Below, one piece after another: positions 41,460 to 52,060 of a stretch of 52,060 nt of DNA. The stretch covers positions 1 to 52,060 of the forward strand of contig JADGJT010000142.1 of NCBI GenBank assembly GCA_027604005.1. Direction: 5' to 3'. Position 1 is the stretch's first letter; every line of letters starts with the position of its first letter. A model generated the notes under the pieces. It did not search any database. It was not told the origin of the DNA and saw only the letters and a list, made by a program, of their open reading frames with translations. Origin of the DNA: Dinochytrium kinnereticum (taxonomy: Eukaryota > Chytridiomycota > Chytridiomycetes > Chytridiales > Chytridiaceae). The translations under genes were made by a program, and so were the position numbers.

Positions 41460-43022
41460 TCAACACCTCTTCCCCACAACCCCCCTCAAAGCCCCCGCCG
41501 CCTCAACCTCAGCATCAAAATCCTCCTCCGCATCCCTATTAGCTATCAAAATCCTCCCTTCCATTCCAGAAAGGTACGCGCAAAACGGCGCAGAATGCTT
41601 CACAACAGCCTTTGAAGTCAAGGCGCGAATCAGCGCAAACTTTTTCGGTGCATCCGTAGAAGCCGTGTCAGGCAAAATGGAATCATCGAGGAGATCATTT
41701 ACGAGTCGCAGAACCCTCGTCCTCAGCACCTTGCGATGCCTCATAAGCGCCTTGTTATCGTCTTTCTCCAGAGCTTGAGAAAACACGGCGGAGATGACGT
41801 CCATACCGGTTTGGGATTTCTTAGCGGATCGGCTCTTTGCTGGTTCAGTCTTGTTGCTATTTTTGTAAGTTGAGCGGATGGGCTTGCGACGAGAATTTGA
41901 GGAGGATTTTGGGGAGGGTTGGTGGAATTCGTTAAGAAGTTGGACATCGCCTCGCAGGAGGGTGCCGATGGTGAAGATGAGGCTAGATTGGGCTTGAACG
42001 TCAGGCTCTTCGTCGAGATGGTGGAGGATGGTATGTAGATATCCACGGGTTAGGGCAATCTTCCTCGCGTCGGGGTTGTTCTGTGTAGAAATAGAACAAG
42101 TAAGCACGAGAAATGAAAGATGGGATACATACGGAGAAGCATGCGGACAAGACCCTAGCCGAATGAATCCGAACCAAAACATCAGAATGCGAGAGCAGGT
42201 CGTTAACAATATGATTGGAATCATCCGCCTTGAGCCTCAGAAAGTCAACACCATCGGCATAATCCCCCACAACATCCTCCAGAGCTGTCAGTCCCTCAAC
42301 AATCTCCTCTGAGTTGGATCCATAGATCGTGTATGAGACTTTGAAGGTGGAGGCATGAGACTCTGATGACGCATCGGATCCATTCTTTAGGGCCTGATGA
42401 TTGGCTTCGGGCTTGATGCTGCCTTGTCCCATAATGGAGGCCAGTATCTCATCACGAAGCTCAGCGGGAATGCCACCACGCTCCTCATCCTCTCCCTGAC
42501 GAACATAACTGAATTTGACGTCCTCCTCCGTCTCGGATGAATCCTCTGGCTGCTCCACGTTCTCTGAGGCCTCCAGGGGTGGGATAACCACAACACCATA
42601 CGCCGCTTCATCTTCTGGAGTGGAGGGAGCGATCAGCTTGGCCTCCTTCTGGCCGGTCGAAAAGTTTATGCGAACGTGGAGGCCTTTCGGAAGGCACTCC
42701 CATGGCTGAACCGTGCGGAACTCTGGATTAAAGGAAAGGTGAATACGCAAAAGGAGCGACTTTGCAATGAAGCACCTTCTGTGGGCACGAACTCTGACGT
42801 GCAGGCTGCAGCAGGGGCGGGGGCTTCTACATCGTGCTCCTCCTGCTCCTCCTGCTGCTGGGCCGGATAAGCGGATGAGGAGCCTGCCCCTGGCAGAGCC
42901 AGGATGGAGAGGATTGTGAGGATGAGGGAAAGGGTGATGAGGAGCTGCAGCGGCCGCAGACCCCTAAGCAAACCACTGCGGGTGCTGGTCGCGGTCGTGG
43001 TGGTGGTTGACGATGTGCGCAT
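41460..43022 (-). CDS. SIL1: SIL1-type ER nucleotide exchange factor
   Basis: Exons on the minus strand: 43022-42776, 42722-42133, 42080-41460; 485 residues. SIL1 is the armadillo-fold exchange factor that releases ADP from the ER Hsp70 BiP/Kar2. A basic N-terminus and a hydrophobic core (LQLLITLSLILTILSILAL) form the signal sequence. The SIL1 signature spans the first splice: CTSEFVPTE joins EFRTVQPWECLPKG, then LHVRINFSTGQKEAKL. Armadillo repeats follow (HSDVLVRIHSARVLSACFS, RGYLHTILHHLDEEPDVQAQSSLIFTIG in two stretches). A Ser/Lys-rich insert lies between later repeats. The C-terminus (VVGKRC) lacks a KDEL-like retention signal. Start at 43022 is chosen because it places the hydrophobic core about 25 residues in. 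Confidence 0.9.
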
Positions 43023-43653: not shown

Positions 43654-46600
43654 ATGGATTCTGGCGGCAGCATGCAGAGGCCTGCGGTGGCAGCAGCAGC
43701 GGCAACATGGAGCGCAACACCTGAACAGCTGGGGATTTCTCGGAGGAACTTGCCTGCACCACAAGCACAGGCTGCGTCTCGATCTGCCGGGGTGTCGGTT
43801 GGTGGCGCTCAAACTGCTGTCAACTTCAAGCCGTCGCCGTCACATTCCTCACAGCCGCAGCAGCTACAGCAGCGATCACAGAGTGGAAATGAGGCCGTCT
43901 CTATTGGGCGTGTGCAGGCAATGCTGCGCAAGTTGGCAGCTGCCCCATCTCCACCTCAGGTTCGTTCACCTTCTGTCTTGGCACATGATCCTTGGGGCTC
44001 TCCCCCACCCTTTCACCCCTCCACTAGCCTTGTCTCTTTCCTTCCCCTTCCACCCCACCCCACCCCATCCTCACCCGAACCGCTCACCTCTCACCCTCCA
44101 TCCATCATCCGACTCACTTCGTCTTCTCCGTATCCCGTTGCTGGCTCTCGCTCGTGCCCTTATAACTAACGAATGGTCACACTTGACAATGCCTGTGACG
44201 TTAACCGCGCCAAACCCATGCAGTCCACACTCCCAGCGCCCTCGACATCGACGCCGTCGACCCCATCAGCAAGATACGCAACGCCCGCATCCTACTCATC
44301 CCCGTCATCCCTTCGGCAGCGCCACAACCCTCTACAGCAGCCGGAGCCTCAACAGTCCCCATCATCATCATTATCACCGCCGCCTCCTCTTTCACCAACT
44401 CCATCGCAAAGAGCCAGAAGAGCCCCCTCCTCCTTGCCACCATCCCCTTTACCTCAACGGAAGGAACTTTCATCATTAGCTGCCGCATCACCAGATGTGT
44501 CCGTCTCCGCCATGGTCAAAAGCCTTATCCCCCTAACCACTTCCCTGCTTAAGGCAAACCCCTGGATCGCCGTCGCGGCCCCATGTCTTGCCCTCATCGC
44601 CTCAAAATTAGTATCATCAACATCCGCCTCTCTTCCTTCCGTTATCCCACCTCCACCTCCACCGGCTCCAACACCATCTCCCAAAGCGACAACGAGGAAA
44701 CCTGAATCTAAACCAAAAAAGAGGAAAGGAAACTCATCCTTACCGACGCCACCACCACCGGCACCAGCGCCGGCTCCTAACGGAAGCATCTCCTTGACAA
44801 CATTTATTGGAGGCGGAGGATCTGGAGGGCCTGGAGAATCTTCAGCTCATAGTCTTGCCCCTCAGCAGTCTCCGCTTATCAGATTGCTCCTCTTTCTCGT
44901 TGGATACAAGCGGAAAGAATGGTCATTCTGGTGGTCACTCACATGGAGGCTGGGGGCGCTTACCGTTGTTGTTGTCGCCTTATCGGCCGTTGTGATAACG
45001 GTTGCCGTTCGCCAGAGAATTGCTCGACGACGTCAAAGGAAGCGGTTGATCGATCCTGGTGTCAATTCTCACAATGCTGATGACGATACCTGGGGAAGCC
45101 ATGTATGGCAAATGATTATGGGTGATCACGACTCAAGGCTCGATGTTGATCTGGATGGGCCTGGAAGGATCCTAGGGCAGAGGGCACCTTCGAGCTTGCC
45201 ACCCTTATTGGAAGATGTATCAGTTAGTGCGGATCGCGGGGGATATGGAGCTGGTCTCTTGAGCCTATTGCGATACCTTTACAAGCAGCGCTTTAGACTT
45301 ATGAGGTCAGCCTCTTCTGAGGTGATAGAAACTGCCTTAGGATCTGAGAAAAAGATTTCGCGAGTTAGGGATAGCAAGTTGGACCCTGAAGTCGGCGTTG
45401 CCAGTCCTGGGCGGGTAGTGGCAGAATTCTACCTGAAACCATCCATGCCGACGAGCCCAGCCAACAGCCCTCAAAAACAAAACGCGGCTACTCCTCTGCA
45501 ACCGTTTACGGTGCCTTTACGACCTGCCCCAGAACCTCAGGCATTCACTCCCTCCCTCTACAAGTCCCCCAACGCCGATTCCCCTCTGTCGTCTTCACCA
45601 GCCCGCTCTACTTCCTCGGACGATTTTGCCCTATCTACACCTCCAAGAGGACCACCTCCGAATCCGTCATCACCCTTCTCACTGTTTTCCTCACCCCAAA
45701 AGTTGGAATCAACTCTCCTTCCTGCCATCCCCAATGTGGCTGACATCAGCCTCTCACCACTCTTCCCGAGATCAGCTCCCCCGACAAAAGTTATACAGTT
45801 TGATGACCAGTTGAAGGAGATTGAGCGTGAGATTCGCTTGCAGGAGCTTCGGATGCAGGTTGAGGAGGATATTGATAATATTCCATTGGGAAGGGGCGAA
45901 AGAGGGTCATTTGGATTGGGTGTCGGAATTGTTAAGAGAGGCCCGTCAGATGATATTGTAGGCGGGTCATCTCCACCTAATCTTCCTGCTTTCAATGCTC
46001 CAGGCAGTCTTCTTGAGAATTTCCAATCGTCCAGTACAAGCGGGGGTATTGGAAAGACCTCAGCTACAAGGTCCTCGTCACCATTCCATCGTCAAACGGA
46101 TCGTACCAACACGGTTCGGCGGTCCTCTCCCCTATCCTCCCGTGAATCCTCCCCAGTCCGCTTCGCCGAATTCACCCAAAAGTCAGCGAGTTCTGAAGAG
46201 CATCACCTCTCTTCCTCACTTAAGAACTCGTCCGCACCAATCCGTCCTCACGCCACTCTTCCCACACCACCAACCTCCCTCTTCCTTCACCCAAACACAA
46301 AATCTTATTCCTACGCTTCGATGCACCTCTCAACGCTCCCTATCTCGGCGCCACATCATCCTTACCTGACGCGACTTCACTTGCCAGGCAATTCACTTTC
46401 GTCCATCCCATCGTCATTGTTGCAGGCGCTTCCAATGTTAAAGTTTTTGGATCTTTCTGATAATCGAATCTCAGAGGTGCCCGTGGATCTTGGGAAGCGG
46501 TGCCCTGAGTTAAGGGAGGTTTATTTGCGGAATAATCGGTTAGGGTGGGTGGCTACGGATGCATTTCTGGGTTTAGTAAGGTTGGAGGTATTAGATATGG

Positions 46601-49386
46601 CTAAAAATGGGCTCTCTGTCTTTGGTGAGTTTGCTCTTTGCCCTTTGCCTGTCCCTGCTTTTGAAACTAACCATTCTTGTATCATTCTTGCAGAGCCTCA
46701 CTTTTTTAGCTCTCTGAGACGCCTTCATACCCTTATCCTCTCCGAAAATGGACTACGGACTCTCCCGGCCTCTCTAGGTCTTCTTCGCTGCTCACCTTCG
46801 ACCACCACATCCGTATCTTCCAAACTCGTAGCTTCACCGTTGACGGAGGTTGGGGGCTCTCTCACATGTTTGTTCCTCGACGGCAACACTTTCGACCCCT
46901 CTCTTCAACGTTTGACGACGCCCTTGTCTAATGCTAATCGGATGATGGAGGGGAAGGTGAACGCTATGCTGAATCTGAGGAAGGCTATTGCGAGAGATGG
47001 TGACGAGGATTTGGAGGATGGTGATGAAGAAGATGAAGAAGATTATTGGGATGATGCGGTTGGGGACGGGGTTGCTCCTGCTGCGGAGATTGGAGATTTG
47101 GGTGGGAAGAGGGTGCAGTTTGGTGGTGAGTTTTTTTGAATTGTTTCTTTTTCTTTCTTTTTTTTTTTCCTGCATCGTCTAGTTGAGTACTACAGAGAAT
47201 ATTTTCGTTAACCATTTTGTTTCTTATGGTGTCTGTTTTTTTTTTGTGGGGGTGGGCCTTTTCTCTGAATCCAGGCGTAAACGTTATTGAACACAATACC
47301 GGCACTCCCTCGCCAATGGCCACACGCGCGACGATCGTCACGTCCTCCAACCGCCCCATCAAGCGCACATCCCTCCCCGAAATGCGCTCCCCACTGGACG
47401 CTAAATCCCTTGACCCGACGTCATCAGCTCTTCTCTCAACCTCACCAATGGCAACCCTTCCCCGCCGAAACTCAGATGACTCGAGCAGCCTCACTCGAGT
47501 TCCTCAGGCCAACAACCCTGCCTACGTTCACCTCCAGCGTCTCCTCTCTCACCTTCACGACCTCTACGATCTTGACTCTCGACTCCGACTCCCTGGTCAA
47601 TCAGGTGTTGTTATGGTGTCTGGAGCTGTTGGGGTTGCTGCTGGCGGGGAGAGGAGTGGGGATGACCCTGATGCTCCCGGGTTGACGGAGAAGGAAAGGG
47701 AGAAGATATTGAAGAGACAGAGCCCGGTTAGGAGGGCGAATGTTGTTTCGGAGGTGTTGGCGACAGAGAGGACTTACGTTAGGGAGTTGCAGGCTCTTGT
47801 GGATCTTTATTTGGCGCCTTTAGAGAGGGCTGGGGATATTGTCACGGCGGCGGATGTGGGACTGATGTTTTCGAACGTTAGGAGCATATTGCTGTTTCAT
47901 CAAAGGTGAGTGGAGGATGTTTTCCTTTTTTTTTTGGTTTCTTCATTTGCCTTTTTTTTTTTTTTTTTTTCCCTTTGCCACTTGGCTCTAACGTCCAACT
48001 TCTTTTAGACACCTCTTGCCTGAACTTGAAGAAGCGATCAAGAATCCCGACCAGCCCCTTGGTGCCGTATTCCTCCGGTGCGCGCCTTTCTTCAAGATGT
48101 ACTCCCAATATTACAACAATTTCGACGTAGCAAACCAGTTCATCACTCAACTAGAGCAGTCAGCGTCAAGTTCCTCGTCCTCCTCTTCCTCGCTTATTCG
48201 ACCCCTCTCTATCCTTCCTTCCTCCCAACCTCAACAATCCTCTTCATCATCAACCCTCCTTCAGAATTCCTCGATAGGTCCTAACGTCTCCAACGCCGCT
48301 CGGAAAGCCGTGGCAAGGAGGTTGAAGAACTTTATGAAGCAGGCGAAATCCAACCCGGCCCACGGGCAGATTAGCTTGCAGGCTTACCTTATCCTTCCTG
48401 TTCAAAGACTTCCGCGTTACAGACTCCTCGTAGATCAGCTACTGGAATCGACGCCTTTGAAGCACGCGGATCGTAGGGATATGGAGCTAGCGGCTGTCGC
48501 CGTCCGTGATCGAGTTGCTGAATGCAATGATAAGAAGAGGGAGATGGAGGAGACTGAAAGGGGGCTATGGGCCATGTCAAGAGTGAAGGTTCGGTCTGGA
48601 TCGATCAACGGAGACTTGTTTTGCCATGTCAGATCTGGCAGACGGTTCTTGAGGCAAGGATCGTTCAAGATTTTGAAGATTGTGGAGGCCAAGGACCCTG
48701 CGTTGGTATCTACCAAGCCTTCAACGGCTTACCGCGTAGATGCGAACTTTGCCGTTGGACCGAGCAAGAAGGACCGATTCTTTCAAACGGCTCTTGGGCC
48801 ATTGGTTGAGACCCGCTTTGTGGATGCTGGATGGGTTCCGTCCTCCACCCCATCCATGTCGGCCACCCCGGCAGGGTCGGGACCTCCTGTTGGAGTCGTT
48901 GACTCCTCCCCTGGTGGCTTGGCAGATGCATACTCTGTGTACGGTCTCCAACGCACGACTGGGAAGGAGTTTACTCTTCTCCTTTTCTCAGACGTCCTCT
49001 GCTGGTGCCGAAAGGACCCGTCTGACTCGGGTGACGACAGCGACTTGATTCGAGCGTTTGCGATTGGGTCGCCTGCTTGCTCTGTGGAGAGGATGGTGGT
49101 CCTGGATCTGTCTACAAGTGCGACGACCACTGCGCCTACTGCACCCACTGCCGCTGTGCCCAGGGGAAGGTTCAAGCAGGCAAGGACCAGCATGTTTCAG
49201 GGGTCTATGGCGCCATTACAGAGGTCTGGATCAGTCCCGCCTGGGAGGGGCGGGGAGCCAGAGGCGGTGTTGAGGGTGTCTGATGGCGGATGTGTGGTTT
49301 ATGCTAGGGGGCCCTTGGAGGAGGTGGAGGCTTGGGTGGAGGCGATCAAGGGATTGGCGGCGAATGCGTCCGCGGGTGGGAGGTGA
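43654..49386 (+). CDS. Membrane LRR-RhoGEF (DH-PH) protein
   Basis: Exons 43654-43959, 44224-46624, 46694-47125, 47275-47905 and 48009-49386; about 1,715 residues. In order: a disordered Gln/Ser/Pro region; a hydrophobic stretch (NPWIAVAAPCLALIA); a strong membrane helix at about 342-363 (ALTVVVVALSAVVITVAV) followed by a basic RRRQRKR stop; a long disordered segment; leucine-rich repeats at about 815-960 (LRRLHTLILSENGLRTLP); an acidic stretch; a DH domain at about 1200-1440 (VVSEVLATERTYVRELQAL, AYLILPVQRLPRYRLLVDQL); and a PH domain ending EEVEAWVEAIKG. DH-PH modules load GTP on Rho GTPases. LRRs could recruit the partner. The phase-1 junction at 47126/47275 joins LRR and DH halves cleanly. 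The 69-nt intron at 46625 is in frame and stop-free; splicing restores 24-residue LRR spacing. Confidence 0.82.
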
Positions 49387-49905
49387 TGATGACTATGCCA
49401 GGAGGTGATTACTGCGACTGACTTTTGTGCATGAATTTAGGATAATGTCTTTTTTTTTGTTATCTCTTATATTCCGACACACCATCACTTTTACTGTTAT
49501 TTGTTGCAGTGTCTTGCTTGAGTCCTTTTTGAATATCCACGCGAGTGTGGAAAGAACCTCGTTCAGTGTCGTTGTTTTCCTTTTCTCTCTTTCTTTTTGA
49601 GTTTCTTCTTCTTCTTTTTTCTTTTCTTTTTTTTTCTTCTTTAAAGCGTCCGCCTCTTTCTTTGCCATTAGACCCCACGAGCATCATGTTTCTCGCTCTA
49701 TGGATTATCATTTATTCATCTTGTTTTCGTTAGCGTTTTGGTACTTCCAGTTGCCGTTTGCTGCCTTTGTTTTTTCAATAGAAGTTTTTTTTTTTGGGAG
49801 AGGAAATCTGTTTGACTCTGAACTGCATTGGATGAGGACCATGGCCTTGTGAAGAGGAATGCACCGAGCATCCTGACCACTCCACCAGCCGCCACCCCAC
49901 GACTC
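49387..49905. other. Intergenic, LRR-RhoGEF 3' flank to SP-RING promoter
   Basis: 519 bp, T-rich. The open frame of the next gene extends back to 49828, but its first ATG is at 49906. Confidence 0.5.
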
Positions 49906-51961
49906 ATGACAGCGACCACCGCAACAGCAACCAGAGGCAGAAGCAGCAGCAGGCGACACGACGGCGACGGGCATGCGATGGACACTCATAGCAATGGACA
50001 TGATGCACCCCCTGCAGCCGGCCCCTCACCTGCCGCTGGACGAGAATCTGCAGCTACTGCATGGGGGAAAGGACCTTACCACTGGATGGATGAGATAGAC
50101 CAAATAGTCATTCGGAGGGCTGCGAATGTGGGTGATCAATGGCTGAGTCTTTACTTGTCGGTGAGGAAATGAGGAGAAACCACAAGCCTTTACTTTTTGC
50201 TTCTTTAACTGAACCTTGGTTTTTTTTTTTCTCTTCTTCTTTCTCTCTCTTTCTTTACTCTCTTTCTCGTTTTCTTTTCTTTTCTTCTCTAGAGCCCTGA
50301 CCTGCTTCGCTCTTGCCTGAAGAAGGGGGATGTTGATGATGTGGATGCCGCCGTGAAACATCTTTGTATGAAGTTTGGATATCCGTTGCAGCCAGCCCTC
50401 ACTCATGAACAGTCGATCATATTCCTGGATTCAATGCTGGCATCGATCACGCGAAGGTACGAAGCGAAAGCTAAAGGGGATGAAGACCCGAAACGTTCGC
50501 AGACGGGGTCAAGACAAAACTCGACCCTCAAGTCAACACAACGACAAGGCCAACCCAGTCCCAACATTTTGCATCGCCGAGTACCGGGTGCTCTTTATCC
50601 CAGCAAACCACATCAATCCTCCTCCTCCTCCTCCTCCTCCTCAGCCTCCCGACCACGCTCTCCCAAGAAGAAAAAGTCCGAAAGAAAACAAGGTCGATTC
50701 CGTCTACCCCTTCCTAGCCTGATCGCGAAAGGGGCGCCGTCCTATCAGGAGAAGCATATCTCAAATCAATGGCGATTCATCTCCTCCTGTCGAATCGCCC
50801 CGAAACTTCACACATTCTTCAATTTCAAGGCTTACATTGAGAGCTTTGACATCCCACATGCGACCTTTGGTAATTCGTATGCCATTGTCCCGGGGACAGC
50901 GTCCGTGGTGTTTCCTATCTTAAAGGAAGTTTTGGATGCCATAAAGGAAGGACACGGGTGCTACCTCTACCTGTTTTCCGAATCATCAAGAGGGATAGAC
51001 GTTTCGCAGCTTTCGATCCTGGTGAGGGTCGGTAATGGGGAGTTTATTCGATGCGATAAGACGGTGAGGACCCTCTGCTTGGCTATTTTATTGTGGGAAA
51101 AAAAAAGGTTGGAATTGCTGACGAAGGTGTTTGTTTAGGTTGGAAGCTTTCCGCTAATAGAAGTTACTGAACCGTTTCGAGATCCTGCGGCGGCAATAGA
51201 GGGAAGATCGTCCTCTATTCACTTTTCAATATTGAACCAAAGGGCCGCCAGGTCAAAGGTTGTTGGATGCTTAATGCTTTTATCACCGTTGGATGAGATG
51301 CAAGTAGGTTATTGCTTTGATGTTTTGTCGTAGCTTCTTCTTTCCTCTGATATCTTTTTTATTCTTCCTCCCTGCCTTTTTTTCTTTTCTTTTTCTTTTG
51401 CAGCGTCTCGCCAAAGTCTATGTCAACACCGTAGCAATTGATGGTATGGCATTACTCTTTCAAATAGCTCACACAAGTCATTTTTTCAAGACTCTAACAA
51501 AAACTCGGCAGGGGACGAAGATCAAACTGTTCCCCTCGGCTTTACACTTTATTCACCATTCCCCCCCGACATAAATTACCTCCAGGAGAATCTCCTACGA
51601 TCACCTGATCTCTCCACCAAGAAAGGAAACGCCAATAAGAAGAATGTAGAGCGCTATGGCGTCGTCCTGTCTGATGGCGAGCAGGAGGAGCCGCGACCGC
51701 CGGAAACCCCTAATCTCATGGAAGATATTGAGGTTGGGGACACGATTCTATCATTCACCTGCTCGTTGTCGTTGACGAGGATTGAGCATCCGGCTAAAGG
51801 AAGACTTTGCAAGCACCAACAGTGCTTTGATGCAAAGGTTTGCTTCCTTGTTTTGGTCTTTCAGAGTATCTGATCTTGGTTTGTGCAAGGTTTTTCTCCA
51901 ACTTGCCAACATAGACGTGACGTGGAAATGTGGAGTTTGCAATGAATTCATCTTCCCCCAG
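49906..51961 (+). CDS. SP-RING (Siz/PIAS-type) SUMO E3 ligase-like protein, 3' end not resolved
   Basis: Exons 49906-50160, 50293-51063, 51139-51303, 51404-51443, 51512-51837 and 51890-51961 are visible, about 543 residues. The next exon lies at the window edge and is not resolved. The SP-RING zinc finger is LSFTCSLSLTRIEHPAKGR, then LCKHQQCFDAK and, across a 52-nt intron, VFLQLANIDVTWKCGVCNE. The CxH-x2-C and WxCxxC ligands match Siz1/PIAS proteins, which pass SUMO from Ubc9 to targets. The region at about 200-340 (WRFISSCRIAPKLHTFFNF, GCYLYLFSESSR) sits where PIAS proteins have a PINIT domain. The N-terminus is disordered with a poly-Ser tract. After 51961 a direct splice to 52022 would meet TAA at once; an alternative acceptor at 51998 stays open into the poly-C tract. 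Confidence 0.8.
50617..50640 (+). repeat. (TCC)8 microsatellite encoding poly-Ser
   Basis: Eight TCC triplets in the SP-RING gene encode most of a nine-Ser run. It lies in a disordered linker and should vary in length without breaking the frame. Confidence 0.85.
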
Positions 51962-52027
51962 GTAATCAACCCCACCACTCTTCTTATTTGGACCACAGGC
52001 TGAACATCCTCTCTTTTGCAGTAACAT

Positions 52028-52060
52028 CCCCCCCCCCCCCCCCCCCCCCAGGCGGCCGCC
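52028..52060. other. 22-C homopolymer followed by a NotI-containing GC palindrome
   Basis: Positions 52028-52049 are 22 consecutive C. They are followed by AGGCGGCCGCC, which contains the 8-bp NotI site (52052-52059). This is at the very end of the window. It may be true sequence or a library or assembly artefact. Confidence 0.8.

Follow-up and report, generated by a model that had tools for sequence, protein, structure and literature searches.

A five-exon gene for a leucine-rich-repeat RhoGEF

The window analysed here is the whole of contig C142 (52,060 bp; JADGJT010000142.1) from the assembly of the chytrid Dinochytrium kinnereticum (22.4 Mb, 558 contigs), and the gene in question, at 43654-49386, encodes a predicted guanine nucleotide exchange factor (GEF) for Rho GTPases (RhoGEF) with N-terminal hydrophobic segments, leucine-rich repeats (LRR), a DH domain and a PH domain, hereafter the window protein. 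It is a single gene of five exons and four GT-AG introns, with 1715 codons plus a stop (Table 1). An earlier note on this DNA had proposed one continuous gene with the order transmembrane (TM) segment, LRR, DH and PH, which the five-exon model bears out. That note had also named a hydrophobic segment inside an intron as the finding to look for against it; this was checked and is not so, the strong segment and the first repeats lying in one uninterrupted open exon.

Table 1. Features of the LRR-RhoGEF gene, in window positions (aa, amino acids; KD, Kyte-Doolittle hydropathy).
Feature	Position	Strand	Description
Exon 1	43654..43959	+	aa 1-102; not in public model; donor GTTCGT, acceptor ATGCAG
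Exon 2	44224..46624	+	proline/serine-rich N-terminus, both hydrophobic segments, first repeats; inside a 989-codon stop-free frame
Exon 3	46694..47125	+	final repeats and acidic linker
Exon 4	47275..47905	+	linker and initial part of DH
Exon 5	48009..49386	+	remainder of DH, PH; stop TGA 49384-49386
Hydrophobic segment 1	44542..44622	+	aa 209-235, KD 1.67 (217-235); possible first arm of a membrane hairpin
Hydrophobic segment 2	44947..45015	+	aa 344-366, strong candidate TM helix; basic stretch after
Leucine-rich repeats	46315..46941	+	~aa 800-985, split by intron 46625-46693; Pfam LRR_8 E 4.3e-19; alignment of 23 proteins
DH (RhoGEF) domain	47742..48528	+	aa 1203-1430, split by intron 47906-48008; Pfam RhoGEF E 6.3e-41
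PH domain, long inserts	48547..49383	+	~aa 1437-1715

The public protein HDU67_001682 (NCBI; D. kinnereticum, order Chytridiales) is identical to the window protein over residues 1150-1715, but its model starts at a later ATG without exon 1, retains the 69-base intron within the LRR, and merges with the downstream gene even though the GEF frame ends in its own stop. Exon 1 is supported by the motif TWSATPEQLGI, whose 11 residues are identical in P0004 from Blyttiomyces, and by a similar RVQ...PSPP stretch at the end of the exon, also in P0004 (both by eye); the motif was present in two of the 28 proteins examined, the window protein and P0004. With the 69-base intron removed, the spacing of the repeats matches that of relatives.

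The Pfam RhoGEF match spans profile positions 1-180 of 180, own-genome matches for the DH domain fell at 47742-47909 and 48010-48528, and the domain aligned to those of P-Rex2, 8zlf and P-Rex1 (three alignments). Both conserved regions CR1 and CR3 of Dbl-family DH domains are present, and a PH domain directly follows the DH in the predicted structure, which shows a DH-PH fold. The LRR lie N-terminal to the DH in one polypeptide, and the DH is akin to that of other fungal LRR-RhoGEFs. Among 24 aligned chytrid-type proteins, which include the public model of the window gene and one metagenome protein, Pfam recognised LRR and RhoGEF in all 24 and PH in none, that of the window protein included; the PH domain was modelled for two proteins, the window protein and one relative. 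The domain set that the earlier note suggested looking for in chytrid proteomes is therefore seen for LRR and RhoGEF, and not, by Pfam, for PH. No second LRR-RhoGEF was found in the own genome among the best candidates scored: of 16 matches obtained with P0019, four lie in the window gene and the other 12 each cover only one of the two parts, DH or LRR.

Hydrophobic segments in chytrid and other fungal LRR-RhoGEFs

Segment 2 has a KD of 2.65 over 19 residues (346-364), a value reached in none of 5000 shuffles (highest shuffle, 2.64), and 8 of the 15 residues directly after it are basic. Both segments are N-terminal to the LRR, and none of KD 1.6 or above occurs elsewhere in the window protein. 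The single TM helix of the earlier note corresponds to segment 2, but that claim has to be widened to take in a second, weaker segment with counterparts in many relatives. The likeness of window segment 1 to the first segment of relatives was judged by eye, from position and hydropathy; a MAFFT alignment of 17 proteins seemingly misplaced it, for which low-complexity inserts were blamed.

In 23 of 40 chytrid-type LRR-RhoGEFs at least one segment with KD of at least 1.6 was present well ahead of the LRR, and an equivalent segment in none of 38 LRR-RhoGEFs from other fungi (Basidiomycota, Gryganskiella, P0034 and P0095). The 40 residues before the first recognised repeat were excluded by the script that applied this cut-off; P0081 (1.58) and P0082 (1.48) fell just below it. 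From a chytrid-type list of 42 proteins, setting aside P0072 and P0073, which begin at the LRR, and the misplaced P0008 left 39, with 22 carriers by script; P0008 restored gives 23 of 40. P0086, a metagenome protein near Spizellomyces without a segment, is among the 40 (23 of 39 if omitted), and P0003 (the same gene), P0032 (LRR, no segment) and P0031, P0033, P0077, P0085 and P0087 (no LRR listed) were left out, homologue matches without LRR not being counted. The non-chytrid list of 40 was reduced to 38 by P0089 (Tieghemiomyces) and P0105, in which the script recognised too little sequence ahead of the LRR. Pairs that are near-duplicates or come from one species (P0008/P0009, P0010/P0011, P0022/P0075, P0025/P0026 and P0074/P0079) were counted singly, and independent cases are thus fewer. 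The two homologue searches scored 7977 and 7996 candidates, those sharing most words within length limits, so that absence from other fungal groups cannot be concluded.

In 21 of 22 carriers the observed best segment was reached in at most 10 of 200 shuffles of the N-terminus. If each carrier's two best segments are compared, which makes them a pair by construction, 15 of 23 carriers have both at 1.6 or above, 19 to 110 residues apart, and the second ends at least 172 residues before the LRR in 22 of 23, the exception being P0011, whose second segment has a KD of only 0.49. Around segment 1, ALHhhSPRLS or a near variant occurs in nine Chytridiomyces-type carriers. A search with residues 95-245 of P0008, which span its hydrophobic module, against 516 candidates matched two proteins, P0008 itself and P0009, and the module is therefore too divergent for that method. 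In several basidiomycete proteins (e.g. P0036, P0043 to P0047), hydrophobic stretches with values as high as 2.12 occur at the LRR edge or within the repeats; we regard them as part of the repeats, not as anchors.

A maximum-likelihood tree was built from 43 DH-PH regions, and in it all 38 chytrid proteins group together (support 100/100). The clade of 13 that contains the window protein is made up of 11 carriers plus two models truncated at the LRR. Further carriers belong to Cladochytriales, Polychytriales and Rhizophlyctidales, and others to one of several paralogue groups in Spizellomyces, Powellomyces and Geranomyces, genera that we take to belong to the order Spizellomycetales. In Powellomyces hirtus and in Geranomyces variabilis, proteins with segments coexist with proteins that lack them, which makes these species naturally suited to comparing presumed anchored forms with free ones. 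In Spizellomyces punctatus, a species with genetic tools, just the segment-less form was observed.

Among the segment-less LRR-RhoGEFs, P0017, P0020 and P0029 have a different long N-terminus, with GHYNFLN in P0017 and P0020 and an RDKAE stretch common to P0017 and P0029. A short RDSK motif at residues 484-488 of the window protein, also in P0004 and P0023, is found in segment-less proteins as well (e.g. P0016, P0018, P0019, P0024 and P0071), there at most 35 residues from the annotated N-terminus; the models of these proteins may lack 5' exons.

A probable membrane anchor and its topology

We favour, with a probability of about 0.6, a membrane-held RhoGEF of the Dbl family with a probable two-segment hairpin anchor, cytosolic LRR and a DH-PH tandem that would act at the membrane. 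The N-terminal hydrophobic module, probably a helical hairpin, would hold the protein in the membrane with both ends in the cytosol, and a long disordered spacer would lead to LRR that most likely dock a partner protein. There the predicted DH-PH tandem would promote GTP loading of a Rho-family member (Rac, Cdc42 or Rho); the plasma membrane, the endoplasmic reticulum and others are all compatible as the membrane in question, and the protein might serve in cell shape or zoospore movement. Since no segment lies between LRR and DH, the two should be on the same side of the membrane, and since DH domains act on cytosolic GTPases both are expected to face the cytosol. Reception of outside signals by the LRR is thus unlikely, and a receptor with external repeats was rejected, both segments preceding the LRR; the likely arrangement is a GEF anchored in the membrane whose LRR form a docking surface. 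Of the route from membrane to Rho in the earlier note, the anchored GEF is retained and outside-in reception by the LRR given up.

Membrane insertion itself is suggested by hydropathy, conservation and the predicted model, and several observations weigh against it or against a simple history of the module. The shuffle margin for segment 2 is thin (2.65 against 2.64), segment 1 is not significant alone in the shuffle test, the mixed charges flanking the segments point to no one topology, and the confidence of the predicted model at the segments is only 40-80. No segment is present in 17 of the 40 chytrid-type proteins, some of whose models may be shortened, the weaker segment of the pair is at 0.49-1.59 in the other 8 of 23 carriers, and the best segment of P0080 was reached in 39 of 200 shuffles. 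On the 43-region tree the carrier label requires eight changes, five of them forced by well-supported branches and two due to cut-short models, and the 'no segment' label six, three of them forced; an earlier tree of 41 rows had three changes of the carrier label, and the larger one has more paralogues. Losses, missed exons or repeated gains must therefore be part of the history, and we prefer the reading that the module arose early in chytrids and was later lost. That chytrids possess a conserved class of integral-membrane RhoGEFs, with hairpin anchor, cytosolic LRR and DH-PH in one chain, we regard as an even bet, neither estimate being set higher because both segments pass in only 15 of 23 carriers and because of the thin shuffle margin.

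An unlikely alternative is a single-pass anchor in which segment 2 alone crosses the membrane and the N-terminal 340 residues lie outside or in a lumen, possibly with a sensing role. Segment 2 is indeed the sole strong one in the window, and the basic residues after it favour a cytosolic C-terminal side, but the pairing of segments in 15 of 23 carriers argues for two arms, and the N-terminus is of low complexity with no signal peptide evident by reading, a predictor not having been used. It is likewise improbable that the segments do not span a membrane and are packed in a soluble or peripheral N-terminal part, the GEF being recruited like other DH-PH proteins. The weakness of window segment 1 would fit such packing, as would best values of only 1.6-1.9 in several carriers (P0004, P0080 and P0083) and the absence of segments at this place from the non-chytrid LRR-RhoGEFs and from the chytrid-type proteins counted above as lacking them. 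Against it, the stronger segment is at 2.15-2.65 in 11 of 12 examined carriers of the window's clade (P0004, 1.77), and the Entophlyctis model has a long stretch of confidence below 50 after the segment, with no folded soluble domain evident. A wrong join of two neighbouring genes, with a TM part foreign to the GEF, is very improbable and was rejected: the public model of the window gene is wrong in three places and that of P0021 looks fused too, with ubiquitin-protease-type domains, but the shared exon of strong segment and first repeats, and the recurrence of this order within single proteins from 15 further chytrid genera, largely refute it.

A membrane-anchored RhoGEF would matter for how Rho is controlled. 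To our knowledge most RhoGEFs are soluble and need recruitment to membranes; a GEF built into the membrane would, if real, bypass that step and make Rho activation permanently membrane-tied instead of recruitment-dependent.

Related systems and neighbouring sequence

The earlier statement that fungal RhoGEFs lack LRR was not borne out, LRR with RhoGEF occurring in many Basidiomycota, in Gryganskiella and in Tieghemiomyces, and the combination as such was rejected as new to fungi (e.g. UMAG_00736 and proteins of Kwoniella, Armillaria and Coprinopsis). UMAG_00736 and the Phanerochaete protein resemble the window protein in having LRR and then DH in a long protein, with clear kinship in the DH region; the other fungal LRR-RhoGEFs differ from the chytrid form in that none of the 38 non-chytrid members has a hydrophobic segment well ahead of the LRR. 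Database entries for such proteins carry names like 'RhoGEF and LRR domain-containing protein' (Phanerochaete), and Um_00736 is termed 'Conserved protein' in the available part of one paper (PMC3579696). No study of a plain fungal LRR-RhoGEF, or of a TM form in fungi, was found among the papers listed in the one open-licence library searched. What is unusual is the putative membrane module, LRR-RhoGEFs themselves being already known as unstudied predicted proteins, and the presumably membrane-tethered fungal LRR-RhoGEF is a conserved and apparently undescribed form.

P-Rex1 and other Dbl-family tandems share the DH-PH fold and catalytic motifs with the window protein, whose PH differs in having long inserts and no Pfam match; we take P-Rex1 to be membrane-recruited and without LRR or TM segment. 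Toll-like receptors and plant LRR kinases likewise join LRR, TM segment and signalling domain in one protein, but in the window protein LRR and effector domain lie on the same side of the segments. A Naegleria RGS-RhoGEF has putative N-terminal LRR ahead of a DH-PH tandem but also an RGS domain, and the text available mentions no membrane anchor (PMC9283941). The fungal adenylate cyclase Cyr1 also joins LRR to a signalling enzyme, a cyclase and not a GEF, with a TM helix predicted only in one likely gene-model error, according to the available part of a 2010 survey of 49 fungi (PMC2939053). That survey, whose definition was a single TM helix and whose only chytrid named in that part is Batrachochytrium, recorded LRR proteins having one TM helix in a small number of fungi; the five it retained carry no other functional domain, and two apparent cases were judged likely 5' gene-model errors (PMC2939053). 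By that definition a two-helix protein would have escaped it, and its warning on gene models is answered by the shared exon and the recurrence in 15 other genera. If the anchor is real, a fungal protein that unites LRR with membrane helices and a catalytic signalling domain would be a combination that this survey, as available, did not report (PMC2939053).

The gene fused downstream in HDU67_001682 (49384-52060) has a partial MIZ zinc-finger match at ~51.75-51.84 kb and is presumably PIAS/SIZ-like. The neighbouring gene at 41460-42963 runs divergently, on the minus strand; its product has a hydrophobic stretch in the N-terminal part, and we presume it to resemble a SIL1/Fes1-type exchange factor, an identity that Pfam does not support, having matched nothing in two pieces of the gene. 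The contig end (52028-52060) consists of a C run and then AGGCGGCCGCC, which contains a NotI site; its 23-base pattern, with at most one mismatch allowed, had no other match in the assembly, and this end is possibly an assembly or library artefact.
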